Part shown: piece after piece, positions 31,246 to 49,763 of the stretch
Layout: each line of letters begins with the position of its first letter
How positions within the stretch are numbered: position 1 is the first letter of the stretch
Source of the DNA: a virus
Virus record (IMG/VR): IMGVR_UViG_3300035034_000371
Location: 1 to 49,763 of that record
DNA: 49,763 nucleotides
Reading direction: 5' to 3' (one strand)
Notes under the pieces: model-generated
Databases searched by the model: none
Told to the model about the DNA's origin: nothing
Seen by the model: only the letters and a program-made list of their open reading frames with translations
Position numbers and translations under genes: made by a program

Positions 31246-31256
31246 ATCAATTTACT

Positions 31257-31999: not shown

Positions 32000-32001
32000 T
32001 T

Positions 32002-32163: not shown

Positions 32164-32170
32164 TTATTTT

Positions 32171-32240: not shown

Positions 32241-32242
32241 AT

Positions 32243-33543: not shown

Positions 33544-33559
33544 TTTATTCTCCATTACC

Positions 33560-34126: not shown

Positions 34127-34127
34127 T

Positions 34128-34373: not shown

Positions 34374-34389
34374 TTTGTTTATTCCTTTT

Positions 34390-34832: not shown

Positions 34833-34833
34833 T

Positions 34834-35331: not shown

Positions 35332-35364
35332 TTTATTTGTCCTTTTATTAGTTGTTAAGTTAAG

Positions 35365-35574: not shown

Positions 35575-35627
35575 TATTTAGTCCTTTGTTAAATGCATTG
35601 TCTGTATTACTCACACAAATATTTAAT
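35558..35627 (-). repeat. 70-bp duplicated segment, copy B
   Basis: Matches 30765-30834 with about three differences. Here it spans the last codons of the 93-residue gene (ending YLCE), the intergenic leader and the start of the Cys-rich gene. This copy is likely the original, because the coding ends on both sides are intact. Confidence 0.85.
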
Positions 35628-35888
35628 GTCTTCATAGAAAATTGTATCTTCATGTACTACCTCTATGTCTATTTCATATACCCCAGCTTCGTCATGGTCA
35701 GTAGTTACGGTTATTTTAAAATCATATTTTTTCATTAAGTTTTTAAATGCTTTAACTGCCTTTTCTAACTTAATGTTGCCCTTTGCATCTCGCTTCTTTT
35801 CTTTGATATATTTGTCTAGTCCATTAACCTCTGTTACTTCTTTTAACTCTGCAACCACTTTATTGTGTCTCTTCTTGCTCACTAGCAT
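35607..35888 (-). CDS. Hypothetical protein (93 aa)
   Basis: Lys/Glu-rich protein with a helical N-terminal two-thirds (HNKVVAELKEVTEVNGLDKY; EKAVKAFKNLMKKYDFKI) and a final strand pair (KITVTTDHDEAGVYEIDIEV). No motif recognised. The next gene begins 32 bases after its stop. Confidence 0.6.
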   Translation of the reverse strand: MLVSKKRHNKVVAELKEVTEVNGLDKYIKEKKRDAKGNIKLEKAVKAFKNLMKKYDFKITVTTDHDEAGVYEIDIEVVHEDTIFYEDIKYLCE

Positions 35889-35890
35889 TT

Positions 35891-36052
35891 CTATTTCCCA
35901 TTTTTAGGTGTTGTTAAAAACTTATTTAAAATACTTTTTTTGTTGTTTGGTAATGAAGTTACAAACTCTTTTCTAAATACCCTATCTTCAGCCACTATTT
36001 CTAATTGTTTAAGCAATAATTCTCTTCTAATTGTTTTAACATCTTGTTTCAT
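35891..36052 (-). CDS. Small protein (53 aa)
   Basis: Open frame from ATG 36052 behind AAAAAAGGATAATAAA, ending just before the 93-residue gene starts at 35888. The product (MKQDVKTIRRELLLKQLEIV ... LTTPKNGK) is basic and probably helical. Tight packing and a good ribosome site support it. Confidence 0.55.
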   Translation of the reverse strand: MKQDVKTIRRELLLKQLEIVAEDRVFRKEFVTSLPNNKKSILNKFLTTPKNGK

Positions 36053-36073
36053 TTTATTATCCTTTTTTAAAAG

Positions 36074-36325
36074 TTAGTTGTGCAACAATGTATTAGTTAA
36101 ATATTCATCTATGTCTATATGGTCGTCGATAGTAGTGAGTACTGTGCCTACATCTTCTCCATAATCTTTTATCAAGTATTCTTCAAAACTTTGTGAGTTT
36201 AGCTCAATCCAGTTTTCTCCGGGATTGTCGAAAGTCTCTTTTTGTATGTGGTGTTCATATTTAACTTTATCATTTAATATAGCTTTATCTATTATATTCT
36301 TACAAGCAGTTTCTAATTCTATCAT
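36074..36325 (-). CDS. Acidic hypothetical protein (83 aa)
   Basis: First gene behind promoter copy 6. It is strongly acidic in its C-terminal half (EEYLIKDYGEDVGTVLTTID, then DHIDIDEYL), a composition common in phage DNA mimics and small host-takeover proteins, although nothing specific is recognised. The ribosome site is GGAG ahead of ATG 36325. Confidence 0.6.
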   Translation of the reverse strand: MIELETACKNIIDKAILNDKVKYEHHIQKETFDNPGENWIELNSQSFEEYLIKDYGEDVGTVLTTIDDHIDIDEYLTNTLLHN

Positions 36326-36335
36326 TTCATTCTCC

Positions 36336-36395
36336 TGTTTAACTTACAAGATTAATTATGTACTAATTAAATTGTAAAGTAAATACTTTTTATAA
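36336..36395 (-). promoter_or_regulatory. Repeated leftward promoter/operator, copy 6
   Basis: Minus strand: TTTACT (complement of 36378-36383), 17 bp, CATAAT (complement of 36355-36360), TGTAC-centred palindrome. The leader is shortened (goes from the -10 region directly into GTTAAACAGGAGAATG). Upstream sequence is AT-rich but lacks the regular taatttaaaaa units. Confidence 0.85.
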
Positions 36396-36411
36396 TTATT
36401 TATAAAATTTT

Positions 36412-37854
36412 TTAAGTGCAACTATCTTGGTAGGCATATAAACAGTCCAAAAAACTTCTTTGATTAGTTTCTTTAGAAGCTAGACGCATGACTATCGCTT
36501 CGTCTACTGTGTCTTTCATTATCAATAAATGATTTCTTACGTCGTGTTTTTGACCCTGGCGGTGCAATCTGCCTATTAATTGATGATATAACTCCCAACT
36601 GTCGTCTAAACCATACCATAAGATGTTTCTACCTCCGCTTTGTAGGTTCAAACCGTGGCTAGCGCTTCTAGGATTACACAATAGAACATCCAGTTCTCCA
36701 TTGTTCCAGGATTTTTCATTCTCAGCGAATTGTTGCTTAGATGTACCTGACCCGATATGGGCGAATTTATATTTTTTCTTTTGTAGCGCGGTAGTTAAGG
36801 TGTAATAATCTTGGCGAAACATATAAGCCACTAACAATGGTTCGCCGTTTAATGACTCTATGAAATCTAGTAAATAATCTAGCTTTAAAGTGTGTATATG
36901 TTGGACAGTTCTACCTATGTCGGCGCTTCGGTTGTCGTGTTCTGTTGGAGTATAATATTCTTCATCATTGTGGTATAAAAACCCTTGAGTAAGCTGCCTA
37001 CATTTTTGTGACAACGCCACGGCTGAAAAAGCTTCTATACCTTTTTCTTTAGTTTCGTCTAGACTAAAGAACATAGACTTCTGAAATTCAAGATATTGTT
37101 TTCTAAACTTAGCCGGCATATTTATATAAATTCTATTTTCTGTTAATTCCGGCAGTTTAGGCAATTCTGACTCATCTATTCTATAGGTCAGATGCTGTAC
37201 CGCATTCACTATTTTTTCTGAGGCACCCGGTTTCAATTCATATTTCTTAAAAGTATATCCTGACTCTTGGAAGTACGCGGACTTGAACCCTGATATAGTC
37301 TTGCCTAGGCTTTGCCCTCTGTCTAGATTAAAATACTGAGCCCATAGATCTAGATAAGAGTTAGGGCTAGGAGTTGCGCTTAACAAAATTACATTCTTGA
37401 CCCAGTTTGTAAGTTTTTTAACAACTCTAAACCTCATAGTAGACCAGGCTTTCAGTTTACTTGACTCGTCAAAAACTATAGTATCAAATTTTAAAATTTT
37501 AGAATTTATGCACAAATGTGTCAGCCATTGAAGCCCCTCATAATTTATTAGATATATGTCTACGTCGCCGTTTAGGTATTCGGTTTCCTTATTTTTACCA
37601 TGTAGTACTGAATAAGTTAAGTGGTTAAAATTACTCCATTTTTTTATTTCTCCCGTCCAAGTAGAGTATACTATCGGTAGTGTTCCTACAATTAATACTG
37701 ACTTAGCTTTAGGATTTTTTCTAGCTTCTACAATCCTGGATAAAGTGCAGCTAGTTTTTCCTGCCCCCATCGGTAACCACAGCGCGCATCTAGGTATGGT
37801 AGAGAGGTACTCAATGGCTTTCTTCTGGTAGTCCCAGGGTTTAAAAATCTTCAT
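36412..37854 (-). CDS. SNF2-type DEAD-like helicase
   Basis: About 480 residues from ATG 37854, five bases after GGAGG. Helicase motifs are in order: DYQKKAIEYL (Q/Ia region), GAGKTS (I), FDESSKLK (II), LLSATPSPNSYLDLW (III), then C-terminal NPRSASHGLNLQSG (V) and HQLIGRLHRQGQ (VI). Phages with A-family polymerases, DUF2800 and VRR-NUC genes commonly carry this helicase as a replication or recombination helper. A longer reading from 37881 lacks a ribosome site. It closes the replication cluster; promoter copy 6 follows. Confidence 0.88.
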   Translation of the reverse strand: MKIFKPWDYQKKAIEYLSTIPRCALWLPMGAGKTSCTLSRIVEARKNPKAKSVLIVGTLPIVYSTWTGEIKKWSNFNHLTYSVLHGKNKETEYLNGDVDIYLINYEGLQWLTHLCINSKILKFDTIVFDESSKLKAWSTMRFRVVKKLTNWVKNVILLSATPSPNSYLDLWAQYFNLDRGQSLGKTISGFKSAYFQESGYTFKKYELKPGASEKIVNAVQHLTYRIDESELPKLPELTENRIYINMPAKFRKQYLEFQKSMFFSLDETKEKGIEAFSAVALSQKCRQLTQGFLYHNDEEYYTPTEHDNRSADIGRTVQHIHTLKLDYLLDFIESLNGEPLLVAYMFRQDYYTLTTALQKKKYKFAHIGSGTSKQQFAENEKSWNNGELDVLLCNPRSASHGLNLQSGGRNILWYGLDDSWELYHQLIGRLHRQGQKHDVRNHLLIMKDTVDEAIVMRLASKETNQRSFLDCLYAYQDSCT

Positions 37855-38230
37855 CTGTTCCTCCAACATGGTGGTCACCAACTCTATTTAATTTTTTAAT
37901 CTCTTCGGTGATCTTATGCAGTTGTCCTATTAATACTACGTTTTGCTGGGACAAAGCCGATAAGAGATGTATAGTAGCCCTGTCTACCGAAGATACCGAC
38001 ATCTTGGCTGCAATTTTGTCTACCTTAGAACCTAGGGTGTCTAGCCCCATGTTACTCAAAATAGTTTTAAAAGATGCGTATTCCTGGGGTTCTAAGTCTA
38101 AAAAATCATATTTTTCTTTAAAATTGTCCAGATTTTTATCCTTAATTTTTTCGTTTAACTTTACATTATTTTCTTTAGCTTTTTCTAAAGAATTAGCTAT
38201 ATTTTTTTCTATGTTTTTAAAAAATTTCAT
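37841..38230 (-). CDS. Hypothetical coiled-coil protein between nuclease and helicase (129 aa)
   Basis: Start at ATG 38230 in a TGATG overlap with the VRR-NUC gene. Lys/Glu-rich N-terminal half (KNIEKNIANSLEKAKENN), a middle folded part and a C-terminal helical end with LLSALSQQNVVLIGQLHKIT. Its 3' end overlaps the helicase start by 14 bases. Likely a replication accessory by context only. Confidence 0.62.
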   Translation of the reverse strand: MKFFKNIEKNIANSLEKAKENNVKLNEKIKDKNLDNFKEKYDFLDLEPQEYASFKTILSNMGLDTLGSKVDKIAAKMSVSSVDRATIHLLSALSQQNVVLIGQLHKITEEIKKLNRVGDHHVGGTDEDF

Positions 38231-38517
38231 CACAACTTCCTTAGTTTTTGCGCTTCCATCATAAGAGGTATATCCTCCATGGTGTCTAAAATATATACGT
38301 CGAACCCTAACCGCTTTAACCTTGTATGCTCTCGCAGTTGTGCAGCGTTGGGGACTTCCCCTGGGGCTTTACATTCTACAAAGAACGCTCTGCCGTGAGG
38401 TTGTAATATAATTCTATCAGGAGCGTTTTTAACTCCGACACCTTGTAGTTTGTAGGTCTTGTACCCATTTTTTAAACACGACTTTCTTAATTCTGCTTCT
38501 ATCTTGCTTTCTCTCAT
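38230..38517 (-). CDS. VRR-NUC domain nuclease
   Basis: A 95-residue PD-(D/E)XK nuclease of the minimal phage VRR-NUC type, which may process branched replication or recombination intermediates. Catalytic pattern: E9, then APDRII with D34, FFVECK with E48 and K50, and Q60 in NAAQLREH. Length is normal for the stand-alone phage form. It is coupled by TGATG to the downstream gene and sits between polymerase and helicase, as in many related phages. Confidence 0.9.
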   Translation of the reverse strand: MRESKIEAELRKSCLKNGYKTYKLQGVGVKNAPDRIILQPHGRAFFVECKAPGEVPNAAQLREHTRLKRLGFDVYILDTMEDIPLMMEAQKLRKL

Positions 38518-38523
38518 TAAATT

Positions 38524-38802
38524 CTATTTAAATACTCCAAAATGTTTGCATAGTTCTATGTATTGATCGTTTATCTTGTCTAGATGCTTTTTTCTATATT
38601 TTTGTAGAATTCTATGTAAAGTATCTGAACGTTTTCTAGTACTTAACTCTACATACATACATTCCGCTAAAAAATCTGAGTCCTTGTGTCGTATTACGTC
38701 CAAAATAGGCTTAACTCCTAGCTCAGTATGTAGCAATTCATATTGTTCTTTAGAAATAGCTACGTCTCTTAAAAAAGTAGTATTAACTAAATCTTTTTGC
38801 AT
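38524..38802 (-). CDS. Hypothetical protein (92 aa)
   Basis: Small, mostly helical protein (KEQYELLHTELGVKPILDVI; LHRILQKYRKKHLDKINDQY) between polymerase and VRR-NUC genes. Six bases separate it from the nuclease start. Probably a replication-module accessory; no family recognised. Confidence 0.6.
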   Translation of the reverse strand: MQKDLVNTTFLRDVAISKEQYELLHTELGVKPILDVIRHKDSDFLAECMYVELSTRKRSDTLHRILQKYRKKHLDKINDQYIELCKHFGVFK

Positions 38803-38818
38803 TTTATTGTATATCCTT

Positions 38819-40801
38819 TTAGTCTTTTCTATATCTGTATGAACAAAATCCTTCAGCCCCTAGAGGTAGTGACTTAGCCCACGGTGGATTAGCTAACATT
38901 AATTCTGTTTGTCGGGCTAATTCTTCTTTTTTGTCTAATTCACACACTATTTCATCGTGTACGTGAAAAGACACTTTAAAATCATTGTCCATAAGTTGTT
39001 TTATCGCATACATTAATAAATCCCTTGCGGCTGCTTGGCATATATTCTCTACTAATTTACCTCCCCAGGTTCTTTCTGACCACCAGTTAATCCCTTTCTC
39101 AGCGGTATACTGTAAAGCTCCGTCATGGACTTTAGCTTGAGGGTAGCATAAAGTTCTACCGCTGGGCAGTTTGCAAAATAAATCACCTCTTATAACTTTG
39201 TATACTACCGTACCGAACCTAGGATTTCCAACTTTGTACGCCCTGCCTTGAGACCATACCGCGTTCTTAGCCGCATTCTCTAACTCACGCCATAGTACGC
39301 AAATATTAGAATACTTTCTCCTAAAAATGTTTATATGTTGTGACGCCTCTTGCTCAGTTAAAGCTACTCCTAAAGCTTCTGCATATCTTAGTAGTCCTTT
39401 CGCAGAAAGTCCAAAACCCGCACCCAATGTCACAGGTTTACATATAAATCTTTGTTGTTTAGTTACGTCTTCATACTTTACTTTGTATATCTCGGTAGCC
39501 ATATCTTTGTATTGATCGAAACCTGCTTCAAAGTTATCTAAAGCTTCTTTATCTCCCGCAAACCAACACACCAACCTATTCTCTATACTAGAATAATCTA
39601 CTACGCCTAGTATCCCGTCCGGGGGGGCTATTATAGACTGTCGTAACCCCTCGCTCAACACTTTTATTATAGAAGTGTCTATATCGCTGAGAGTATTTAT
39701 ATCCCCTTTTTTAATCGCTGATATAGCTTCTGCAGATAGTTCTTTACCTCTAGGGTAATTATGTATCTGGACTCGTCTACCTGCAAATCTTCCTGTTCTT
39801 GTTGCACCTAAGAATTGAATAGTCCCTTGTATTCGGTTTTCTGTGCTGCACCCGTTAGCCATGACTTTGTATTTGGCTACACTACTTAGCCCTAAATTTT
39901 GTCGTATTTTTAAAGCTTTAACAGCCAAGGAGTCCGGAGAAACTTCTGTCTGATCTCTTAGGTACTCTTGTATAGTGGCTTTCTGTAAATTTAAAACATT
40001 ACATCCCTGGGTTTTTAACCACGATATAAATACGCTGACTTTTTTAGCGGAGTCTACCGCACCCTGCGTAACTTCTTTTAATTCTTGTAGTTGTAATCTC
40101 TCATATTCTTTTACTAAAGACACCGCGCCTGAGCAGTATTCTTTATCTATCAAAAACCCTCTTGAATTTATTAAGCTATCGTAGCTCCAGTAGTTTTGTT
40201 CTTCAGGAAGTATATTCTCACTAGGTAGATGGGCTACAATAGTTCTCTGACTGACTACATCTTGTTTGCAGTAATCAATTAGTTCTACAAAAGCTTCTTT
40301 ATCGTCCTTTGGTAAAATTCGGGTGGAGAGGTTCGTCAAAGTAGGCTTTCTGGGTATGCTAAATTTCCTCAATAGCGCTTTACCTTTTAAACTCTTTAAA
40401 CGCTCTACAGGGAGACCAAGAGCCTGACCGCATCTTTGCAAAGATAAAGGTCTAGCAAAATAAGCGGCTACCGCCATATCGTCCACCCATATAGATACCG
40501 GTACGTCTGGGAAGTTATATTTCTTAGTTGCTACATTCTCCCATATAGCTCTTTCAAAATTAGCATTCCAAGCGCGCAGCCTGCATTCATTAGAATTTAT
40601 TAAGGACACCAATCTCTCAAATTGTTTAGTGTCTGTAGGGTAACAGTCGTTATCGCTACTCCACACGTAGGTTTCTTCTTCCTTTCCAAAAGAAAAAGCC
40701 ATGCAGAGTACCTCACAAGACTCGTGAGAAGAATATAGCCATACACCCTGAGTTATGTCCTCTGAACAATATGTTTCAAAGTCTATGCTTACATCTATCA
40801 T
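38819..40801 (-). CDS. A-family DNA polymerase with 3'-5' exonuclease domain
   Basis: A 660-residue replicative polymerase. Exonuclease motifs: SIDFETYCSED near the start (Exo I), AWNANFERAIWEN (Exo II) and DYCKQDVVSQ (Exo III). Polymerase motifs: VVDYSSIENRLVCWF (motif A, metal-binding Asp), KPVTLGAGFGLSAKGLLRYA (motif B region) and SFHVHDEIVCEL (motif C, HDE). There is no 5' nuclease domain, normal for phage replicative A-family enzymes. It lies in the usual cluster with DUF2815, DUF2800, VRR-NUC and SNF2 genes. The genome also encodes a beta clamp that it may use. Confidence 0.95.
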   Translation of the reverse strand: MIDVSIDFETYCSEDITQGVWLYSSHESCEVLCMAFSFGKEEETYVWSSDNDCYPTDTKQFERLVSLINSNECRLRAWNANFERAIWENVATKKYNFPDVPVSIWVDDMAVAAYFARPLSLQRCGQALGLPVERLKSLKGKALLRKFSIPRKPTLTNLSTRILPKDDKEAFVELIDYCKQDVVSQRTIVAHLPSENILPEEQNYWSYDSLINSRGFLIDKEYCSGAVSLVKEYERLQLQELKEVTQGAVDSAKKVSVFISWLKTQGCNVLNLQKATIQEYLRDQTEVSPDSLAVKALKIRQNLGLSSVAKYKVMANGCSTENRIQGTIQFLGATRTGRFAGRRVQIHNYPRGKELSAEAISAIKKGDINTLSDIDTSIIKVLSEGLRQSIIAPPDGILGVVDYSSIENRLVCWFAGDKEALDNFEAGFDQYKDMATEIYKVKYEDVTKQQRFICKPVTLGAGFGLSAKGLLRYAEALGVALTEQEASQHINIFRRKYSNICVLWRELENAAKNAVWSQGRAYKVGNPRFGTVVYKVIRGDLFCKLPSGRTLCYPQAKVHDGALQYTAEKGINWWSERTWGGKLVENICQAAARDLLMYAIKQLMDNDFKVSFHVHDEIVCELDKKEELARQTELMLANPPWAKSLPLGAEGFCSYRYRKD

Positions 40802-40812
40802 TTTAGTTCCTT

Positions 40813-41403
40813 TTATACTTCAAAGTCATCAGGATTAGTAGCGTCTACTTCAGACTCAAAATCTTTAAATTCATCATCAGCAACGATTGCGTCTTCTGGG
40901 TTTTCTGATGATAAGCGTTCACCATCTTTAACAAAACATAGTCCTCTAACGCTGGCGTTAAAATCTGCGGCTTTTAATTTACCTTGAGTAGCATTAGAGG
41001 CTTCGGCTAATGTTCTAGCGTAAAGATCTAAAGATACCGCGATGTATGCTCCTGGATAAAATTTTATAGGCATTTCCTCCGAAGATAGTTCTTTTAATCC
41101 GTTTGCTTTAGAGTTTGTATAACCTTTAGGAACTTCTTTACTTCCAGGTCTTATAAAGTTCTTTTCGTAAGTATTTTCATAATATTCATCGTCTCCTTTA
41201 CGTAATAGAAAGTCTTTTATAGGTCTAGGTATAGATTTTTCATTCCCAAATTTTTCTAGCAAGCATGCTTTTTTAGCTTTTTTTAATTTCTCGGTGTTTT
41301 CTTCGTCCATTACTATTTGAACACGATATTTATCTTGATCAGTTTTCTTTTTGAACATATTATTTAATAAACGTCCAGATACGGTCACTTTAGTATTAGC
41401 CAT
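40813..41403 (-). CDS. DUF2815-family protein (SSB-like)
   Basis: A 196-residue protein of the family found next to phage A-type polymerases and thought to resemble T7 gp2.5 single-strand binding proteins. Recognisable parts: VTVSGRLLNNMFKKKTDQDKY near the N-terminus, GYTNSKANGLKELSSEEMPI, YPGAYIAVSLDLYA and a very acidic C-terminus (DDEFKDFESEVDATNPDDFEV, shown in part as the last ~20 residues). Acidic tails recruit partner proteins in SSBs. With the classical ssb gene broken, this may be the phage's working SSB. Confidence 0.8.
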   Translation of the reverse strand: MANTKVTVSGRLLNNMFKKKTDQDKYRVQIVMDEENTEKLKKAKKACLLEKFGNEKSIPRPIKDFLLRKGDDEYYENTYEKNFIRPGSKEVPKGYTNSKANGLKELSSEEMPIKFYPGAYIAVSLDLYARTLAEASNATQGKLKAADFNASVRGLCFVKDGERLSSENPEDAIVADDEFKDFESEVDATNPDDFEV

Positions 41404-41432
41404 GATTATATTTCCTTGTAGGTTGTTGTAGT

Positions 41433-42587
41433 TTATAGGTTTTCAAAGTCTGTAGATACATCGTCTACTGACTTTCTTCTATCAGACTCTGCTGCTGCTG
41501 TTAGCCCTCCTAGGGGTTTGGTCACTATGTCTCCTTCTAGTTTTTTAAATTCTTGTTTACCTACTAATTTCTCCGCTTTAGTGATAGTTATCAATTTCTT
41601 AGAATATAAGTCATCTCCATCTACTACATAGTCTTTTAGAGTATTGTACGCTAACGTTTCATCTGCCCATCGCCTTTGGGTGTTTGCCCTTACTAACTTC
41701 ATTCCAGGTATTTTATGCCCTGATTTTAATTTTTCACAAGCATTTTCTTCGACTTTTTCTAAAAACTTAGTCAGTAGCCCTTTCTTATCTATAAAGTCGG
41801 ATAAATCTGCGTCAGACAAAGTATTTTCTACTATAGCTTTATCTATTAAAGGTTTAAAAGACTTGGATAAAGGTTTGCAAGATCCTACAAAATTACACCA
41901 AGTACACCATGAACCTGATTTAAATTTAGGCAAATTTAGAACTTGTTCGGCTTTTTTAGTCACTTTGTCGCCGAAAGATAGCACTTCTTGTAGTGTGTAT
42001 TCCATACTTTTTATATTGTATATACGAGGTTGAAAAATATGAGTTATGTACTTTTCAGAAGCGTAGGAGGTACATCCTAAACTATACATAAGTAACTGAG
42101 AATTATTGTAGACATTTACAAAACCTTTGCCGTATTTTAGATCTATGATGTGCGTTTCATCTTCATTAGATATTATACAATCTGCAGTACCAAAACCCTC
42201 AGGAGCATAGGCGGAATAATCTACTGTTTTCTCTAAATATATTTTACTATTAGGTTTAATTAAACCCAGAACATAGTCCGAATAACCCTCAGCGTGTTTC
42301 TGCATTTCTTCGTTATTATACCGAGCTATGTTCTGGTCGTAGTCTTCGTCAGATATTGTGAGTTCATCCAGTGAAGTCACCAGTGTGCAGTTCAACAACT
42401 TTTCTTGAGACTTTAACTCGCAAAAAAGTTTATATGTAGCATAATAGTGACAAGCTGTCCCCTCTGCAGCATAATCAAATTTATTAGTATATTTTGGCTT
42501 CTTAACTATATCTTGTACATGCGGGCTAGCTGTACAGTTTAGCCACCTCTTAGAAGCTGAAGCTGAAAATAATTTACTATGTTTCAT
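41433..42587 (-). CDS. DUF2800 PD-(D/E)XK nuclease (RecB-like)
   Basis: A 384-residue protein with the family start KLFSASASKRWLNCTASPHV, AAEGTACHYYATY (Glu42), GFGTADCII (Asp136) and HIIDLKYGKG (Asp149, Lys151), the PD-(D/E)XK core. A C-terminal SGSWCTWCNFVGSC cysteine cluster is like the iron-sulphur site of Cas4/AddB-type nucleases. It likely acts in recombination-linked replication. The neighbours DUF2815 and polymerase are the normal partners. Confidence 0.88.
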   Translation of the reverse strand: MKHSKLFSASASKRWLNCTASPHVQDIVKKPKYTNKFDYAAEGTACHYYATYKLFCELKSQEKLLNCTLVTSLDELTISDEDYDQNIARYNNEEMQKHAEGYSDYVLGLIKPNSKIYLEKTVDYSAYAPEGFGTADCIISNEDETHIIDLKYGKGFVNVYNNSQLLMYSLGCTSYASEKYITHIFQPRIYNIKSMEYTLQEVLSFGDKVTKKAEQVLNLPKFKSGSWCTWCNFVGSCKPLSKSFKPLIDKAIVENTLSDADLSDFIDKKGLLTKFLEKVEENACEKLKSGHKIPGMKLVRANTQRRWADETLAYNTLKDYVVDGDDLYSKKLITITKAEKLVGKQEFKKLEGDIVTKPLGGLTAAAESDRRKSVDDVSTDFENL

Positions 42588-42625
42588 ATTTTTCCTTGTA
42601 ACCTTTTAGTTGGGGTTGGTATTGT

Positions 42626-42962
42626 CTACATAAATTCAAAAAAGCGACAAACTATACTTACGTAATGTTTAGTATCTCCTGTCGTTTTATCGGGGTATTC
42701 AGTAGTCTTAATTCTTCCTTCGATATATAATTTTGTACCTTTCTTACCATAGTCTCGCATAACTTCTGCGCTTCTACCGAACATAGCTACATTATGTCAC
42801 TCTACTTCATCTGTAATTACCTCCTGTATGTTTATTCGTACACGTGTAGTTCGTGGCTACCGTTAAATTGGATATAACACAGCCATTAGCTGAAGTAACC
42901 CTTCTAGGATCTGCTCCTAGTCTTCCTACAAGTATTACTTTGTTTATGGTACCTTTTGACAT
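42626..42962 (-). pseudogene. ssb: Broken single-stranded DNA-binding protein gene
   Basis: From ATG 42962 the frame reads MSKGTINKVILVGRLGADPRR ... LTVATNY, an unmistakable SSB N-terminus. It needs a +1 shift near the run AATAAACATACAGG (about 42810-42835) to continue as QEVITDEVE-x-HNVAMFGRSAEV and GTKLYIEGRIKTTEY. At x there is TGA (42799-42797) where SSBs have Trp (TGG). Two independent lesions make a sequencing slip less likely but not excluded. Without them the protein would be about 112 residues, the OB fold with little acidic tail. Confidence 0.85.
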
Positions 42963-42989
42963 TTTATTCCCCGTTTAGTTATCTCTTTG

Positions 42990-43454
42990 TTATACAGTTA
43001 CAACACTGTTATCATAACTAAATTTTATAGTCGTATTGTCTGCCAGGTAGGTATATGTTATTGAAACCGGTACACTACCTCTACCCTCGGAGTCACTCGT
43101 ATAGTTAGGAGTTTCGGTTGCTAAACCCATTTCAACTAAATCTTCTATCATATGTCTTAGGGTTATCCCCTTGTATTCCCTAACCATACAAATAAAAATA
43201 TCTTTAGTATGTATTCTTTTTAGGAACTCAAAACTCAAAACATTTGCCCAGTTTGAACCTTGTTCTTCATCTATTTCTTTGTAAAATATTTCATCAAACC
43301 TGCCTATACAATATACTTTAGTTTTAAATAAATCTACTTCGGGTCTAAATCCATACTTCACAAAGTCGTATAGATTGTTTATTTCTATAGCTCTTAAGTT
43401 TTTTATATAGTTATCAGTCTTGAAGAAACATGTACCATCTGTATATAATTTCAT
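42990..43454 (-). CDS. Hypothetical protein (154 aa)
   Basis: Starts MKLYTDGTCFFKTDNYIKNL and has a mixed alpha/beta pattern, with a C-terminal strand region (VPVSITYTYLADNTTIKFSY). No motif recognised. Lies between an 87-residue early gene and the broken ssb; nine bases separate it from the former. Confidence 0.62.
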   Translation of the reverse strand: MKLYTDGTCFFKTDNYIKNLRAIEINNLYDFVKYGFRPEVDLFKTKVYCIGRFDEIFYKEIDEEQGSNWANVLSFEFLKRIHTKDIFICMVREYKGITLRHMIEDLVEMGLATETPNYTSDSEGRGSVPVSITYTYLADNTTIKFSYDNSVVTV

Positions 43455-43463
43455 ATCTTGTAC

Positions 43464-43727
43464 CTACTTTGAAAAATTTATTATTGTAGTAGTTCTCGCG
43501 ACTTTATGTACATTTAAAGCGTCCTGTTTATCTAATTTATCTGCCAATAATTGAGCTAAGGCACTATTTACTAATTTAATAGTAAGTTCTTGAGTTAGTT
43601 TATCTTTTCCGTCAGTTCCTGTTAGTTCTTTTGCTTGTTCCAATACAGGCTTTACAAAAGACTCTATTTGTTCTTGTGTCATATTGTCTGTTATTTGTTG
43701 TACTTTAATTGCTTGGTGATTATTCAT
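43464..43727 (-). CDS. Hypothetical protein, first gene after promoter copy 7 (87 aa)
   Basis: Mostly helical, Gln/Lys-rich (NMTQEQIESFVKPVLEQAKEL; KLVNSALAQLLADKLDK). It opens the operon that carries the whole polymerase cluster. Start ATG 43727 follows the repeated leader. Function unknown. Confidence 0.65.
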   Translation of the reverse strand: MNNHQAIKVQQITDNMTQEQIESFVKPVLEQAKELTGTDGKDKLTQELTIKLVNSALAQLLADKLDKQDALNVHKVARTTTIINFSK

Positions 43728-43734
43728 TTTATTT

Positions 43735-43830
43735 TTACTTTTTTGCTTTCTGGTTTAACTTACAAGATTAATTATGTACTAATTAAATTGTAAAGTAAAT
43801 ACTTTTTATAAAATAATTTAAAATAATTTT
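43735..43830 (-). promoter_or_regulatory. Repeated leftward promoter/operator, copy 7 (drives replication cluster)
   Basis: Minus strand: TTTACT (complement of 43794-43799), 17 bp, CATAAT (complement of 43771-43776), TGTAC-centred palindrome, short AT-rich upstream stretch. Downstream lie about 7 kb of replication genes without another copy until 36395. Confidence 0.87.
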
Positions 43831-43864
43831 TATTAGATAGTTTTAATAGGGGTTGGAGGTATTG

Positions 43865-43940
43865 TTTGATACCGGTTAAGAGTGTAAGTCAAAGCAACAA
43901 GGTCATAAAAGACAGTTTTTGAACTTAACCGGTAATATCA
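43865..43940 (-). other. Long inverted repeat (11-bp perfect core) in intergenic region
   Basis: TACCGGTTAAG (43870-43880) and CTTAACCGGTA (43924-43934) are perfect complements 43 bases apart. With a two-base bulge, pairing extends outward through TTGAT/ATCAA. It lies between the Nmad1 gene and promoter copy 7. There is no U-tract, so it is not a classical terminator. It could be a structured RNA, a protein-binding site or an insulator between two transcription units. Positions 43831-43973 hold nothing else recognisable. Confidence 0.6.
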
Positions 43941-43973
43941 AGTATACGTTAATACTCCATAAAAGTAAAGGTT

Positions 43974-44351
43974 TTATTTTAAACTTTTTAGGTGATTTGT
44001 TACGTGGTCACCACACATGTTGCCATATACAGATTTTTCGTTATCTTTTAAAATTTCTTCTAATTCGGACTCTACTAGCATTAAATAGCACCTTAGATCT
44101 CTTATATCGTCTAATAATGTTTCCGGGTGAATATTTTTTAAAGTTTCTGATATTCGTATGGCGTCAAAAATGTTATAGCTATTGTTTTGTACCTGGTTCT
44201 CTATTCTATCCCATTTCCGGGCTAACATCATAAATGCTCCTACTCCTCCTCTCTTTTTCCAAGAGTCCCCGTAGGTTTTGCCTTTTTCTACTAAAGTGTG
44301 GAGGTCAGAGTTTTGCATACTTATCAGTATTTTTCTAGTTTTTTCTTCCAT
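43974..44351 (-). CDS. Nmad1 (DUF1599) nucleotide-modification-associated protein
   Basis: A 125-residue protein with the family core KGKTYGDSWKKRGGVGAF-MMLARKWDRIENQ at about residues 23-53, followed by a helical part (IFDAIRISETLKNI; DIRDLRCYLMLVESELEEIL). This domain was defined by its frequent presence in phage operons for modified DNA bases; its biochemical role is not established, though the fold resembles MazG-like nucleotide-handling helices. It is the last gene of the unit containing the glycosyltransferase and thymidylate synthase homologue, which supports a role in making or policing modified nucleotides. Confidence 0.8.
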   Translation of the reverse strand: MEEKTRKILISMQNSDLHTLVEKGKTYGDSWKKRGGVGAFMMLARKWDRIENQVQNNSYNIFDAIRISETLKNIHPETLLDDIRDLRCYLMLVESELEEILKDNEKSVYGNMCGDHVTNHLKSLK

Positions 44352-44430
44352 TATATTTTCCTTTTTGTTGTACTTTCTTAAATTCGTGTTAGGATACTTT
44401 TTTGTTAAGTCTAGCGGTTTTTTTTCTTTC

Positions 44431-45432
44431 TCACCACCTTACACACGCTTCAGACCATTCATACGGAGGTAATTCTTCTTGTAAGATGCGTATAGCTTTG
44501 TCTATATCTTTTCCTACTTTGTATACGTAGTAAGCTTTTAACATATGTGACAAACGTATGCAAAATTCATTAGTCAAGTTTAATTTGCTCATGTCCATTT
44601 TAACAAAATTTTCTAGGCAATAATCAAAGCCCATAAAAAATCTACACAAATCTGAGTCGAGTTTTTCATATTTTATCAAGGTTCTAAGATGGCTGTGGTG
44701 TTTATAGGAACTAGATGGATCTGAAAATAATTGTTCGGTCTTGGGGTTTTCTAGGTAAGTGTGTAAATTGCAAGATACCATATACATGGAGTTCGTGGCA
44801 AACCCTGCACCATCGGCGACATATTGGTGGATAGCGTTAAAATGTACTGGATTGGTTCCTGTAACACCGCCCCATATAGCATCGTTAGATCTATTGTACA
44901 CAAACATATCCAATTTTTTAGTTTCTAGCGGACTCCCAGGGGTCATATTTCTTTGGAATATTATTTGGGTGTTACATGCTTTATCTTTAGTAAGTGATGT
45001 TAAGTCCGTAGCGTCCCATATTTGGCATACCGCTTGACGAGAGTCTGGGTCTGCTTTTAAAATGTCTATAGCTTCTTTTAATTGGTCTACCCCGAAGTGT
45101 TTACGTAGTCTATATCCGTATGCGGCGTTAAATGTTTCCCCATCGTCAGAATAGTCCGCCATTCTCTTATTAAAAAATGTTAAGAATTTTACGTCCCTCC
45201 TGCCTGCAAGCATCCAAGCTGCTTCCATTATTGTAAAAAATGGGTTAATGTTACGGACTGTTGAAGAACATACTGTTTCCAACGGATATTTAAATTTGCA
45301 TACACTTATCCCTGGTAGCTTTAACGCTGCACCGTTTCTGCTGGGAGTATGTACTCCTTTATCACGTAATGCTGGGTAAACTTGGTTACCCATTTTGTCT
45401 AAGCTCGTAGCCTTATAGTAGTTGCAAGACAT
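44431..45432 (-). CDS. Thymidylate synthase / pyrimidine hydroxymethylase family enzyme
   Basis: A 333-residue member of the thymidylate synthase fold. Visible residues: DPDSRQAVCQIWD (R132, phosphate binding), KACNTQIIFQ with catalytic C153, YNRSNDAIWGG (R181) and NPVHFNAI with N194 aligned to the dUMP-selective Asn, and CNLHTY (H224, Y226). The SRQAV and SNDxIWG forms are more like phage dUMP/dCMP hydroxymethylases than host ThyA. It probably makes 5-hydroxymethyl-dUMP (or -dCMP) for incorporation into DNA; dTMP synthesis is the alternative. Its start overlaps the upstream 57-residue gene by 20 bases. Confidence 0.85.
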   Translation of the reverse strand: MSCNYYKATSLDKMGNQVYPALRDKGVHTPSRNGAALKLPGISVCKFKYPLETVCSSTVRNINPFFTIMEAAWMLAGRRDVKFLTFFNKRMADYSDDGETFNAAYGYRLRKHFGVDQLKEAIDILKADPDSRQAVCQIWDATDLTSLTKDKACNTQIIFQRNMTPGSPLETKKLDMFVYNRSNDAIWGGVTGTNPVHFNAIHQYVADGAGFATNSMYMVSCNLHTYLENPKTEQLFSDPSSSYKHHSHLRTLIKYEKLDSDLCRFFMGFDYCLENFVKMDMSKLNLTNEFCIRLSHMLKAYYVYKVGKDIDKAIRILQEELPPYEWSEACVRW

Positions 45433-45586
45433 TTGTTAACTCCTTTAAATGTTCTAGGATTTCAGTTTTTAATACTGTTAGGTTAGAGGTTGTGATGTTT
45501 GGTAAGTTTAGGTTCTCTAGATTTTCTTCTATTGTACTCCATATCAAATTTACCTCGGTCAATTTTGATCCCTGGTTCAATGGCAT
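45413..45586 (-). CDS. Small protein between glycosyltransferase and hydroxymethylase genes (57 aa)
   Basis: Starts at ATG 45586, eight bases after GGAGG that lies inside the last codons of the glycosyltransferase gene; an ATG at 45601 would be inside it without a site. The product (MPLNQGSKLTEVNLIWSTIE ... HLKELTNVLQLL) is one or two amphipathic helices. Sandwiched and overlapping on both sides, it is likely co-regulated with the modification enzymes. Confidence 0.6.
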   Translation of the reverse strand: MPLNQGSKLTEVNLIWSTIEENLENLNLPNITTSNLTVLKTEILEHLKELTNVLQLL

Positions 45587-45590
45587 CTTG

Positions 45591-46391
45591 CTACCCTCCA
45601 AAAGAATGTTGATATGCTTTCTTCCAAGATATAACTACGTCGGTTCTTTCTTTACCTCCCCACGCTGTTTTAGTTTGCTTCTTAACTAACTTCACGAATT
45701 CTGGATATCTTTCGTGTAAAGCTTTTGCACATTGCTCGTGGTATTCTAATGTTCTGTATTCGCTACATCCTCCTGGAGAATTGCTACCTCCAGATTGGTT
45801 ATGGGCGTAATTAACCAACATAACAGGGCGTATTTTATAGTTCAATATAAAGTTTAATTGTCTGTCAAAATCTTCCATAGCCCCTAGTGCCGACATCTCC
45901 TCTACTCCTAGTTCTTTCAAGGCTGTTATATTTAAAGCGTGAAATCGTGTCATTCTTTTCCCGTCTATGGTCACTTTATGTAGCGCCTGTCCGAGTTGAT
46001 TGTATCCCTCACGACTTACCATACCTAGATATTCCTTGCTGTCTAACGCTCCCGCTACTAAGATGAGTAAAGCTTGCATATCTTTGGGGCTAACAGGTTT
46101 TAAATGCCAGTCTCCTTTTTCTATTTGTTTGTAGAATTTCAAGTCGTCATCTAACAAGAGTATTTTCCCCGTGAAATTCTGGTATACTTTTTCTACGGTG
46201 TCTCCAAAATTATTAACTTCTGAGTCTTTTACTACAAAAAACTTCACACCGGAATTCTCTAAAGATTTTTTGTATAAGTCTTCTTCAGAGTCCCTTACTA
46301 CAATGTACGTGCTACTTCTCCATTCTTGGGGTATGTAGGATAAAGTATGTACTTTATTAGCTCTTTTGTAACTCGGTATTATTATTTTCAT
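45591..46391 (-). CDS. TET-associated-type glycosyltransferase (TAGT-like)
   Basis: A 266-residue GT-A-like transferase. MKIIIPSYKRANKVHTLSYI at the N-terminus and the acidic metal/sugar-nucleotide motif LLLDDDLKF (residues 78-86) are typical. C-terminal family-like stretches are NYAHNQSGGSNSPGGCSEYR, HERYPEFVKLVKKQ and DVVISWKKAYQ. Members of this family in phages glycosylate 5-hydroxymethyl-pyrimidines in DNA. No TET/JBP oxygenase or cytosine methyltransferase is seen here, so the acceptor hydroxymethyl group would come from the neighbouring hydroxymethylase. Cell-surface glycosylation is a less likely alternative. Confidence 0.75.
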   Translation of the reverse strand: MKIIIPSYKRANKVHTLSYIPQEWRSSTYIVVRDSEEDLYKKSLENSGVKFFVVKDSEVNNFGDTVEKVYQNFTGKILLLDDDLKFYKQIEKGDWHLKPVSPKDMQALLILVAGALDSKEYLGMVSREGYNQLGQALHKVTIDGKRMTRFHALNITALKELGVEEMSALGAMEDFDRQLNFILNYKIRPVMLVNYAHNQSGGSNSPGGCSEYRTLEYHEQCAKALHERYPEFVKLVKKQTKTAWGGKERTDVVISWKKAYQHSFGG

Positions 46392-46395
46392 TATG

Positions 46396-46572
46396 TTATA
46401 CTTCCTCTACTATTGTGAATTGTTGGCTTATTATTTCTTCTAATTCTGGTGTCTGGGCGTATACTGGGAACGTATTCATTATAAAGTTTATTTTAGCTTG
46501 CTTTAAATTTTCACAGGCTGTTTTAGATTTGAAGATACGTATTAACGTATCTGCTCTATATAATACATACAT
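46396..46572 (-). CDS. Small protein (58 aa)
   Basis: ATG 46572 behind AAGGAAGAT is preferred to the much longer upstream frame, which would lie across the preceding gene. Product MYVLYRADTLIRIFKSKTAC ... is mixed and unrecognised. Ends four bases before the glycosyltransferase start. Confidence 0.55.
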   Translation of the reverse strand: MYVLYRADTLIRIFKSKTACENLKQAKINFIMNTFPVYAQTPELEEIISQQFTIVEEV

Positions 46573-46573
46573 C

Positions 46574-46798
46574 TTAATCTTCCTTATAAGGTTTAGAATA
46601 ATACAAGGCTCGCATAGCTTCGGAGGGTTTGTACAGGGTGTCCCCCTCATCAAAACCGTAGCTAATAAAAGATACCCATTGCATTTGGGTTTCAGCACCG
46701 GATAAGAACCATCTTATAATATTTAAATCTTGGGTCGATCCATATTTTCTTTCTTGGGCGTCTAACTTTTGTTCTAGTTTTAGTTTTTGATTAGCCAT
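46574..46798 (-). CDS. Small protein (74 aa)
   Basis: Start ATG 46798 behind GAGG, overlapping nothing and following the preceding stop at 46800 directly; an earlier Met lies inside the previous gene. Sequence MANQKLKLEQKLDAQERKYG is helical, followed by QDLNIIRWFLSGAETQMQWV. Function unknown; tightly packed upstream of the modification genes. Confidence 0.6.
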   Translation of the reverse strand: MANQKLKLEQKLDAQERKYGSTQDLNIIRWFLSGAETQMQWVSFISYGFDEGDTLYKPSEAMRALYYSKPYKED

Positions 46799-46799
46799 G

Positions 46800-47063
46800 T
46801 TAGTCCTCATCCTCTGGGATTACTGTTACAAATCTTAGCCAGTAGTTATCAAGCTCATGGCAATCTTTTTCTACTATAAACTGATAGTCCTCGAGCGACA
46901 TTAATTTAAACTTATCGAAGCATATACCAGCTATGAAACCTCTCATATAATGAAAATTAGTGTAAGTGGAAGGAAGTATTAGATCTATTTCCTCTAGTGT
47001 TGTGTGTTTTTGTCGGTTAATTAATAGTACGTATACCTTGTGTATAGAGTTTTGTAAATTCAT
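46800..47063 (-). CDS. Hypothetical protein (87 aa)
   Basis: Alpha/beta small protein (IHKVYVLLINRQKHTTLEEI; MRGFIAGICFDKFKLMSLED) ending EDED. Overlaps the upstream gene by four bases (ATGA-type). No motif recognised. Confidence 0.6.
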   Translation of the reverse strand: MNLQNSIHKVYVLLINRQKHTTLEEIDLILPSTYTNFHYMRGFIAGICFDKFKLMSLEDYQFIVEKDCHELDNYWLRFVTVIPEDED

Positions 47064-47341
47064 TTTATTTTTCCTTGTTGTAATTTATGCATAAAATCCG
47101 TATGCGCCATATGATATACCATCTCATCTTCTTTGAGTATCTGACGATTTTTATGCAGGTTCATAAGCTTCCTTCGTAACGAGTTTATAGTATCATGTTC
47201 TATACCTTGGCGCACGGCTGCAACCCTCATATCGTTTAATATTTGCATATTATCCTCTATATGCACGTAGGTCTCATCGGAGCTATAGGCTACAGAACAG
47301 TCGTCTAGGGGTATTCTCATATGTATTCTTGACTCTTTCAT
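47060..47341 (-). CDS. Hypothetical protein (93 aa)
   Basis: Histidine-containing, mostly helical (MQILNDMRVAAVRQGIEHDT; SLRRKLMNLHKNRQILKEDE). The ribosome leader (AAGGAGGAAAACCTGTA) is identical to that of the 47371-47688 gene, pointing to a small local duplication. Function unknown. Confidence 0.6.
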   Translation of the reverse strand: MKESRIHMRIPLDDCSVAYSSDETYVHIEDNMQILNDMRVAAVRQGIEHDTINSLRRKLMNLHKNRQILKEDEMVYHMAHTDFMHKLQQGKIK

Positions 47342-47370
47342 TACAGGTTTTCCTCCTTTTTTTTTTGTTT

Positions 47371-47688
47371 TTATCTTCTACTAGGGTTTAATACGTACTC
47401 CACACCTTTTTTAAAATAGTCTAGAGTTTTCTGGTTGGAAGCAAAATTATCTTCAAAAGTTTTTAGAGTAAAGGGGGTAAATACCAGAGCACCTCCGCTA
47501 GGATTATAGTTATACCGTTCTAATACGTGTGTAAGAGCGTCGCTAATATCTTCCATTAATTCAACTACATCTCTGAAACTTTCTCCATCAAGTTCAAGTT
47601 TCAGATCTAAGGATAAGTTTACTTTATCGTTAAATCTATTCTGCAGAGCCTGTATACCCTCCGCTACACTAAACATCTTGTCCATCAT
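47371..47688 (-). CDS. Hypothetical protein (105 aa)
   Basis: Starts in a TAATG overlap with the Cro-like gene. Sequence SVAEGIQALQNRFNDKVNLS and FRDVVELMEDISDALTHVLE are helical. No known motif. Being co-translated with a regulator, it may be an early control factor, but that is only context. Confidence 0.6.
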   Translation of the reverse strand: MMDKMFSVAEGIQALQNRFNDKVNLSLDLKLELDGESFRDVVELMEDISDALTHVLERYNYNPSGGALVFTPFTLKTFEDNFASNQKTLDYFKKGVEYVLNPSRR

Positions 47689-47900
47689 TACAGGTTTTCC
47701 TCCTTTTTGTGGCTGGCAGCAGAACCTGAGAGGGTGGAACTTGTCAGCCCTTTACAGGTCTTTTCTTCTAGGTAATCTTGTATATCTTTAGGTATGGCGT
47801 ATCCGTCAAGCCATAAATTTATGCGCCCTAATCTAATATCAAGCGCAGCGGCTAATTCTTCTTTGCTTCCAAAATAAGTGATACATTCTTGTACGGTCAT
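47688..47900 (-). CDS. Cro-like helix-turn-helix regulator (70 aa)
   Basis: The N-terminal 45 residues (TVQECITYFGSKEELAAALD ... GRINLWLDGYAIPKDIQDYL) match the compact HTH of lambda-type Cro and YdaS-like proteins: FGS-x-x-x-LA-x-AL, then a recognition helix ending W and an IP turn. The C-terminal tail is polar and Ser-rich. It is the first gene after promoter copy 8, so it could bind the palindrome in that promoter and the seven similar ones. That link is inferred. Confidence 0.72.
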   Translation of the reverse strand: MTVQECITYFGSKEELAAALDIRLGRINLWLDGYAIPKDIQDYLEEKTCKGLTSSTLSGSAASHKKEENL

Positions 47901-47904
47901 TTTA

Positions 47905-48022
47905 TTTTTCCTTTCTGGTTTAACTTACAAGATTAATTATGTACTAATTAAATTGTAAAGTAAATACTTTTTATAAAATAATTTAAAAATAATTTAAAAA
48001 TAATTTAAAAATAATTTAAAAT
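47905..48022 (-). promoter_or_regulatory. Repeated leftward promoter/operator, copy 8
   Basis: Minus strand: TTTACT (complement of 47959-47964), 17 bp, CATAAT (complement of 47936-47941), TGTAC-centred palindrome. It has the longest AT-rich upstream tract, about four regular taatttaaaaa units (about 47978-48022), suggesting a strong UP element. It precedes the Cro-like gene. Confidence 0.88.
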
Positions 48023-48026
48023 TTAA

Positions 48027-48140
48027 CTATTTATGTAGAGCCACGAGGGTTGCGCGTGTAGGCGCCCCTTTAGCATTCCAGCAAGACATTCCAGAAAAAA
48101 TCATAACACTTGTGGCTAACATCAGCATCAGTATTCGCAT
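48027..48140 (-). CDS. Very small lipoprotein (37 aa)
   Basis: Open frame from ATG 48140, with TAAGGAG eight bases upstream. Product MRILMLMLATSVMIFSGMSC then a 17-residue tail. A hydrophobic signal ending in Cys20 looks like a lipoprotein, though Gly at the -3 place is not ideal. Mature size would be about 18 residues. Small phage lipoproteins of this sort include Rz1-like spanins and receptor-blocking exclusion lipoproteins; early position favours exclusion. Confidence 0.55.
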   Translation of the reverse strand: MRILMLMLATSVMIFSGMSCWNAKGAPTRATLVALHK

Positions 48141-48152
48141 CTTATTTACTCC

Positions 48153-48536
48153 TTAATGTAGCGGTAGCGGTAGAGGTATTCCGGTTATAAAATGAAATAT
48201 ATACATACCTGAGTATATTATTGCTGCTAGTGCTACAAAAAATGTTAAAGGTATGCATATAATAAATGTAAAATCTCCTAACTTTTCTATAGGATTTGGG
48301 CTACCCATTCTAAAGTCCATAAAACTATCTAGACCTAGCAGGTATAGAATTCCTATAGGCACGCAATATATTACAAATGCGTGAGGAGGAATATGGTTAG
48401 GTATTCTTGTATACACCATATAGCACCCTACAAAGGCGACTAGGGCTGCCAGGTTTAACGCTACTCGTACCGTATGCATTAGATAATACTCAGCAGCCAG
48501 TATATAGTATAATATTATCCTGAGTTTATTATTCAT
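48153..48536 (-). CDS. Multi-pass membrane protein (127 aa)
   Basis: Three or four hydrophobic segments: LNLAALVAFVGCYMVY, HAFVIYCVPIGILYLLGL and FIICIPLTFFVALAAIIYSG, with a Tyr-rich start. It overlaps the 65-residue gene by eight bases and is followed by the tiny lipoprotein, so the two may act together at the envelope, for example in superinfection exclusion. Function inferred only from location and topology. Confidence 0.62.
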   Translation of the reverse strand: MNNKLRIILYYILAAEYYLMHTVRVALNLAALVAFVGCYMVYTRIPNHIPPHAFVIYCVPIGILYLLGLDSFMDFRMGSPNPIEKLGDFTFIICIPLTFFVALAAIIYSGMYIFHFITGIPLPLPLH

Positions 48537-48726
48537 ATGAGGCCTGTCCTTTAGGATAAATTATTGTGTTATCCCTTGTTGCACCCCATACATTTAAAGC
48601 ATCTTGAACTCCATACACACCGTGTGCTTCTTCTTCCTGTACTTTTTCACCTGTGCCTGTAGTGCCTGTGAATACTGCGGTATAGTAAGGGTACGCCTCG
48701 TACAGAGTTAGTGTATTAATTTTCAT
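48529..48726 (-). CDS. Small protein (65 aa)
   Basis: MKINTLTLYEAYPYYTAVFT, then GTTGTGEKVQEEEAHGVYGV and a short end. Probably a small beta-containing protein. It follows dnaN by 23 bases in the same unit. No family recognised. Confidence 0.6.
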   Translation of the reverse strand: MKINTLTLYEAYPYYTAVFTGTTGTGEKVQEEEAHGVYGVQDALNVWGATRDNTIIYPKGQASYE

Positions 48727-48749
48727 TTCATTAGTCCTTTTTTGGATAC

Positions 48750-49763
48750 TTACAATCTTATTGGCATTATAATATGCATTTCTCTGTCATTATCATCTGG
48801 TAATATTACGATTGGTTTATCATTACTATCATAATTTAGAATTACATTTTTAGTTTTAATAGTTTTTAATACGTCTAAAATATATTTTAACTTTACACAT
48901 AAGATAATCGGTTTATCTGTAACATTGTCTAATTTAAAATTTGTTTTAAATATATCTTGAGCATCATTTTTAATCTTAAATTCAATGTTGTCATTTTCGA
49001 TATTGAATATTATAGCATCATATTGATCAGTTAAATTTTTAAGCTTTGATAGTTTAGCAAGTATATTTTTTCTATCTATTGTTACATTATTTCTTGTCGC
49101 GAGGTTGGGTGTAACTTTTTCATATTCAACATACCTACCCTCTATTGCTTTAAATTTATAGCTAGAACCATACGTATCATACATATTAAATGTAATATGT
49201 TGCTCATTTGTATGGAACCCAATTCTATGAGTATTACTTCCTGCTGTCTTTAAAATTTTTATAATTGTATTAACATCTTCGGTGGGTATAATAAAGCTTT
49301 CACAATTACAATTTTCTCTACTCATAGAATTAACAGCCATTCTATGCCCATCTGAAGCAACCAAATTTAATTTATCATCTTTAAAATCAAAATATACACC
49401 ATTTAAAAATGGTCTTATATCATTCTTTGTTTTTAAATAACTTACACTTTCTAATTTTTCAAGTAATTCTTTACCGTTTATTAAAGTGTCATGTTCGTAA
49501 GTATTTGATAAACCATCAATATGTTTTAACTCTTCTTTAAATTCCACTATTGTTTTTGAGGCTTCATGTTTTAATGATGTTGAAGTTATAGAAATATCTT
49601 GGTTTTCTTCATCTACTAATAATGAAATAAATGATTTTAATGTTTTATGTTTTAATGTTATAGATTGATCATCTTCATGTTCCTGTTCAACATATAAACC
49701 AACTTTACTAAATCTTGCACCATCTGTTGTAGTTAATGTTAAATAATAAGTATAGTGTCTAAC
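48750..49763 (-). CDS. dnaN: DNA polymerase III beta sliding clamp (body of the gene; N-terminus at 1-91)
   Basis: Reading leftward from 49763, the frame is open to the stop at 48750 and joins the 91-1 segment through the 10-bp overlap, giving about 364 residues. Diagnostic motifs are VASDGHRMAV (cf. TDGHRLA in bacterial clamps) and the C-terminal IIMPIRL, almost the universal MPMRL ending. Length covers all three clamp domains. A GTG at 49547 could start a shorter form but would remove domain 1. It should encircle DNA as a processivity factor for the phage (or host) polymerase. Coding is visibly more AT-rich than most leftward replication genes. Confidence 0.9.
   Translation of the reverse strand, partial: VRHYTYYLTLTTTDGARFSKVGLYVEQEHEDDQSITLKHKTLKSFISLLVDEENQDISITSTSLKHEASKTIVEFKEELKHIDGLSNTYEHDTLINGKELLEKLESVSYLKTKNDIRPFLNGVYFDFKDDKLNLVASDGHRMAVNSMSRENCNCESFIIPTEDVNTIIKILKTAGSNTHRIGFHTNEQHITFNMYDTYGSSYKFKAIEGRYVEYEKVTPNLATRNNVTIDRKNILAKLSKLKNLTDQYDAIIFNIENDNIEFKIKNDAQDIFKTNFKLDNVTDKPIILCVKLKYILDVLKTIKTKNVILNYDSNDKPIVILPDDNDREMHIIMPIRL
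49754..49763. repeat. 10-bp terminal direct repeat, right copy
   Basis: Identical to positions 1-10; see the left copy. Dropping these ten bases and joining 49753 to 1 restores an uninterrupted dnaN reading frame. Confidence 0.8.

Follow-up and report, generated by a model that had tools for sequence, protein, structure and literature searches.

The window analyzed here is an entire IMG/VR virus record of 49,763 bases (1..49763). A 10-bp repeat, AGTGTCTAAC, is common to both record ends (window 1-10 and 49754-49763), and circular closure on it yields a single in-frame sliding-clamp ORF, with its C-terminal part at 48750-49763 and its start near the left end, that is otherwise cut by the record end. 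Because joining the ends on this overlap restores the clamp ORF, the map is most likely circular and the record complete. A first-pass annotation had described a DNA base hypermodification pathway split over two loci of one leftward transcription block; once the ends are joined, these two loci literally become one leftward block. The first part of the block comprises genes for a YfbR-like protein (4595-5113), a primase/helicase-type replication protein (1301-4015; DUF5906 3.8e-19, phrog_1156 3e-24), HMUDK_hel (205-1071) and the clamp, together with small genes. It continues with a glycosyltransferase (45591-46391), a thymidylate synthase (TS)-fold enzyme (44431-45432), a conserved protein (43974-44351), a nuclease, an SSB and a family A DNA polymerase (38819-40801; PF00476 3.6e-22). 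The coordinates given are all on the minus strand. The structural genes (terminase, capsid), which make up the other half of the genome, point rightward. All ORFs of the first-pass annotation were found in place, save that the first gene starts with an ATG at 1071 and spans 205-1071, not 205-1059. A 62-aa ORF with a TTG start (45413-45601), located between the TS and the glycosyltransferase, has no family match.

The TS fold of the enzyme at 44431-45432 was confirmed (PF00303 1.6e-18, phrog_5131 4.3e-73). In a TS alignment, E. coli ThyA, the M6/PaMx11-type enzymes and the window enzyme (N194) all have Asn at the base-discriminating position, where T4 gp42 has Asp. Asn rather than Asp at this position marks dUMP-type enzymes of the TS family. 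Because the window enzyme has this Asn, 5-hmdU rather than hmC is by far the likelier hydroxymethylated base and the one to be expected. A T4-like dCMP hydroxymethylase, and with it a dCMP route, was rejected on the same residue. The earlier proposal that hydroxymethyl-dUMP or -dCMP is made before replication is therefore narrowed: a pre-replicative hydroxymethyl-pyrimidine nucleotide is still predicted from the sequence, with dUMP favoured by Asn194.

The YfbR-like nucleotidase at 4595-5113 also held up (PF12917 1.1e-10). Residues H29, H55-D56 and D109 of this HD 5'-deoxynucleotidase, which is predicted to clear competing dTMP, are invariant among 11 cassette homologues. The protein at 43974-44351 had been read as Nmad1/DUF1599, an identity dropped for want of Pfam or NCBIfam support: 0/21 members of its family match the Nmad1/DUF1599 Pfam family at E<0.1, and no convincing Pfam or NCBIfam family was found for it. 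The gene is nevertheless conserved, being present in 55/61 related loci, and its product has a very conserved core, YGDSWKKRGGVGAFMMLARKWDR. The C-terminal part of the TS of Brevibacterium phage LuckyBarnes carries a short motif like this protein (hhalign E 1.6e-4, 50% probability, 27 columns), a likeness that is suggestive only.

The 288-aa protein encoded at 205-1071 matched a single family above chance, PF18723 HMUDK_hel (aGPT-PPlase clade 1; 1.6e-50), and did not match PF18724 (clade 2/ADDT). The earlier aGPT-PPlase call is thus right at the level of the family but not for clade 3/ADDT; by its sequence, the protein belongs to the helical component family of 5-hmdU DNA kinase and is not an amino acid:DNA transferase (ADDT, clade 2). 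No sequence relatives were found in the PDB. When the AF2 model (pLDDT 94.8) was compared with the PDB, 8-oxoguanine DNA glycosylases came out best, weakly (E 0.057, TM about 0.4-0.5), and the nearest predicted viral structures bear the name '5-hmdU DNA kinase helical domain'. One BFVD match comes from Bacillus phage SP10: roughly half of a 637-aa protein named '5-hmdU DNA kinase' aligns to the window model, consistent with a kinase-HMUDK_hel fusion; no fusion of HMUDK_hel to a glycosyltransferase or kinase was seen among the collected loci, a collection to which the SP10 record does not belong. We predict that the window protein is a 5-hmdU-DNA-binding, base-presenting component, here kinase-less. 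The presenting role is suggested by the family naming and the weak structural likeness to 8-oxoguanine DNA glycosylases, and base flipping may be proposed from the model.

The glycosyltransferase recognized earlier at 45591-46391 was confirmed; it is TAGT-like, with a PF20691 score just short of the cut-off (4e-6, 27.3 versus 27.5 bits), and is a predicted 5-hmdU-DNA glycosyltransferase. It also matched phrog_842 (9.5e-30), which is named beta-glucosyl-HMC-alpha-glucosyltransferase, and TAGT was matched at E<0.01 by 21/21 aligned members of the family (best 3.9e-26). The AF2 model (pLDDT 92.2) is confident and GT-A-like, and Foldseek returned 228 PDB matches at E<=0.001 with GT-A-type glycosyltransferases on top (best E 8.2e-8). 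An invariant DDD (residues 81-83) lies at the expected place of the GT-A metal-binding motif. No PDB relatives were identified by sequence, a lone match at E 0.035 being taken as chance. The profile and structure comparisons suggested in the first-pass annotation hence upheld the glycosyltransferase, placed the 205-1071 protein in HMUDK_hel instead of ADDT, and did not bear out Nmad1. The glycosyltransferase gene is not adjacent to HMUDK_hel in the window, a gap of about 3.6 kb separating the two, which speaks to some extent against their acting together.

No P-loop kinase was found in the closed window genome, either by an unfiltered HMM built from 21 kinases or by a Walker A scan; regular expression, Pfam and YuA-based phmmer searches likewise revealed no hidden one. 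Neither PF18748 (5-hmdU kinase) nor PF18724 (ADDT) was detected in the window or in 36 further records, while both were found in the five M6-type records of that search. Kinase and ADDT absence was assessed on whole records for 42 loci, beyond the flanks, several glycosyltransferase-type records being at least 60 kb. TET/JBP dioxygenase (PF12851) had no match in the window, in a search run without a positive control. The kinase searches agree with the earlier statement that a separate 5-hmdU kinase is lacking, and no match contradicts it for TET. The amino-acid-like decoration also suggested earlier fared worse: the 205-1071 protein falls in the clade-1/kinase-helical family, and the amino acid:DNA transferase family PF18724 (PDB 8z2m/25qc) is absent from the genome, on which ground an amino-acid route in this phage was rejected. 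Post-replicative decoration that includes sugar is supported by the predicted TAGT-like glycosyltransferase in a genome without a 5-hmdU kinase.

Kinase and glycosyltransferase are mutually exclusive around HMUDK_hel well beyond the window. We gathered 61 viral contigs with an HMUDK_hel relative using one protein, and further ones using an alignment. Among 124 HMUDK_hel loci, 88 had only a TAGT-like glycosyltransferase, 21 only a P-loop kinase (16 of these 21 with ADDT), none had both, and 15 had neither. Fisher p values were 2e-14 for raw loci and 9e-9 for 73 dereplicated sequences, both uncorrected for kinship. In 79/83 loci, no more than 1 kb separates the glycosyltransferase from HMUDK_hel. 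On a tree of the 73 HMUDK_hel sequences, which takes kinship into account, we counted about 6 changes for the glycosyltransferase (at least 3 forced by supported branches) and 6 for the kinase (all 6 forced). The label switched several times, some changes involving loci with neither enzyme, in which a partner gene might have escaped detection. Genome contigs gave the same picture, with a kinase in 10, a glycosyltransferase or GT4 in 8 and both in 0; the remaining 58 contigs, which include many distant relatives, had neither. The cultured phage LuckyBarnes carries TS, two glycosyltransferases and HMUDK_hel in tandem, and no kinase. The combination, earlier thought unusual, is thus shared by LuckyBarnes and dozens of viral contigs, and a 2022 pelagiphage study offers a precedent (PMC9599517). 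The complete 40-kb phage genome ctUhy936 has glycosyltransferase, dUMP-type TS and HD genes and lacks HMUDK_hel, so the glycosyltransferase may not need HMUDK_hel. Overall, the distribution suggests that the glycosyltransferase takes the place of the kinase in the amino-acid-type pathway, and that these loci represent a widespread class of sugared phage DNA.

Several of the loci with neither enzyme have other glycosyltransferases. A Glycos_transf_1 (GT4) gene adjoins HMUDK_hel, with a match over the cut-off, in L080, the closest window relative by identity (L080:8740-9987), and in L110 (L110:2-874). Weak GT4 matches were found beside HMUDK_hel in L116 (L116:10876-12003) and farther from it in L124 (L124:11750-13087), and L132 has a TAGT match just below the cut-off. 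Nearby genes encode a PIG-L de-N-acetylase (L090, weak in L123), an FkbM methyltransferase (L124) and SPASM radical SAM proteins (L116, L132), which are possible sugar-tailoring enzymes. Kinase-less HMUDK_hel near GT4-type enzymes possibly points to undescribed sugar modifications. In L093 and L122, the neighbour of HMUDK_hel has no family. Proteins of about 350 aa are encoded beside HMUDK_hel at L122:10838-11887 and L133:10885-11925, in loci without kinase or known glycosyltransferase; the one in L122 has no Pfam or NCBIfam match.

Divergent HMUDK_hel homologues also occur in alphaproteobacterial, archaeal and CPR contigs (L180-L218), nearly all without detected TS, kinase or glycosyltransferase nearby. 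In Hyphomicrobium and other bacterial contigs (L146, L147, L149, L150, L155, L171), HMUDK_hel, TS and a 43974-type protein are clustered, with kinase and glycosyltransferase undetected. These clusters are possibly related to a defence system that has been validated and that contains TS, 5hmdUk and NMAD domains (PMC13092281).

The window has partial counterparts in known systems. Phages of the M6/YuA/PaMx11 type (5-NedU and relatives) share with it the M6-type TS, HMUDK_hel, the YfbR-like HD protein, the family A polymerase and the same neighbourhood; unlike them, the window lacks P-loop 5-hmdU kinase and ADDT and has a glycosyltransferase instead. The cassettes of the M6-like SN1 and of PaMx11 contain ADDT (PF18724), tailoring enzymes, P-loop kinase, HMUDK_hel, TS and HD, with a PF18748 '5-hmdU DNA kinase' match in SN1 and a weak one in PaMx11. 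The tailoring genes of the M6-type pathway (PLP, radical SAM, flavin) went undetected in the window. ViI encodes its kinase and HMUDK_hel in two different genes. We take the roles of the M6 and ViI proteins to be those given by Pfam and PDB names (PDB 8z2m, of the ADDT family, clade 2, is titled 'glycinyltransferase') and by general knowledge. LuckyBarnes, which like the window lacks the kinase, differs in its two glycosyltransferases and a TS with a C-terminal extension.

For base J of kinetoplastids, thymine is oxidised in DNA by JBP and then glycosylated by JGT. The product type expected for the window, glycosyl-5-hydroxymethyluracil in DNA, is the same, whereas hydroxymethylation is expected at the nucleotide level (the TET/JBP search was negative, again without a positive control). 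As in T4 5-hmC glucosylation, a nucleotide-level hydroxymethylase is combined with a post-replicative glycosyltransferase, the latter predicted in the window; T4, however, hydroxymethylates dCMP and uses glycosyltransferases of other families, in contrast to the dUMP-type enzyme and GT-A-like TAGT found here. In HTVC023P-type pelagiphages, TS, aG/PT-PPlase1, 5'-deoxynucleotidase and 'beta-glucosyl-HMC-alpha-glucosyltransferase' lie near one another, and this combination, noted in the accessible part of the 2022 account, was remarked as possibly broadening the system (PMC9599517). That part reports no kinase exclusion and proposes no product. As of 2019, glucosylated 5-hmdU in phages was stated to be unreported (PMC6449724). 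In the literature open to our search, no precedent was found for the exclusion rule, the GT4 variants or the reassignment of the 205-1071 protein.

Together, the family memberships, the dUMP-type TS, the absence of kinase and ADDT, the exclusion and the repeated partner exchange make it probable, in our judgement, that this phage pathway yields a base-J-like glycosylated 5-hydroxymethyl-deoxyuridine in DNA, and that HMUDK_hel is the shared part that presents the substrate. From these sequence-based observations, we infer the following steps. The TS-fold enzyme would hydroxymethylate dUMP to hmdUMP, as its Asn and its M6/PaMx11-type kinship suggest, and the YfbR-like HD enzyme would lower competing dTMP. 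After conversion to hmdUTP, presumably by host kinases, the nucleotide would be incorporated by the phage polymerase, hydroxymethyluracil taking the place of thymine. HMUDK_hel would then recognise and present 5-hmdU in DNA, a service that the P-loop kinase of M6/ViI phages presumably receives from the homologous protein; its family identity and the repeated exchange of partners point to this role. Finally, the TAGT-like enzyme would use a nucleotide-sugar as donor and glycosylate the hydroxymethyl oxygen, so that 5-(glycosyloxymethyl)dU results. Such a base may shield the DNA from host restriction nucleases and hmU-excising glycosylases. More tentatively, and with somewhat less than even confidence, we propose that HMUDK_hel is a general 5-hmdU adaptor whose partner has been swapped repeatedly among P-loop kinase (amino-acid route), GT-A-like TAGT and GT4-type enzymes, the sugar sometimes being tailored by a deacetylase, methyltransferase or radical SAM protein.

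Other readings of the cassette were weighed. HMUDK_hel might itself be catalytic, the base then being modified in two ways, independently or sequentially, by HMUDK_hel and the glycosyltransferase. Identical residues are invariant across kinase-type and glycosyltransferase-type HMUDK_hel members, the fold weakly resembles DNA glycosylases, and the two genes are non-adjacent in the window; nevertheless, we consider this unlikely, since a common HMUDK_hel that is accompanied by a kinase or a glycosyltransferase, never by both, better fits one shared role, and since both the Pfam name (kinase helical domain) and the match of the SP10 protein to the model connect the family with the kinase. Phages with only 5-hmdU in their DNA exist, and phage glycosyltransferase genes are common for surface modification, so that the enzyme could act on another target, such as host surface glycans, and leave 5-hmdU plain. 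This is improbable for a TAGT-group enzyme that is encoded so regularly within 1 kb of HMUDK_hel and excludes a DNA kinase.

The version given in the first-pass annotation, sugar and/or an amino-acid-like group with the latter added by the aGPT-PPlase protein, could draw on records that annotate clade 1 as alpha-glutamyl/putrescinyl thymine pyrophosphorylase. It is very improbable, as the glycine-adding transferase belongs to the ADDT family missing from this genome, and there is no kinase to make a phosphorylated leaving group. T4-like glucosylation of hmC, to which the name of phrog_842 would point, has the least to recommend it and strikes us as extremely improbable, given Asn instead of Asp at the base-discriminating position and the presence of HMUDK_hel, M6-type TS and YfbR, all families of 5-hmdU pathways.

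If glycosylated 5-hydroxymethyl-deoxyuridine is the product, as we favour, the cassette may help to explain related modifications. Phage YerA41 carries a roughly 1-kDa oligosaccharide-like thymidine substitution to which no enzymes were assigned (PMC9023294). The cassette supplies named enzyme candidates for such sugared bases, plus a cultured carrier, LuckyBarnes, and, as kinase and glycosyltransferase exclude each other at loci that share HMUDK_hel, the role of HMUDK_hel becomes testable. The cassette could also yield 5-hmdU-specific DNA glycosyltransferases, useful to label hmU. Should HMUDK_hel indeed be a general adaptor, viruses would have in it a modular platform from which many glycosylated thymidines, as yet undescribed, could arise in their DNA.
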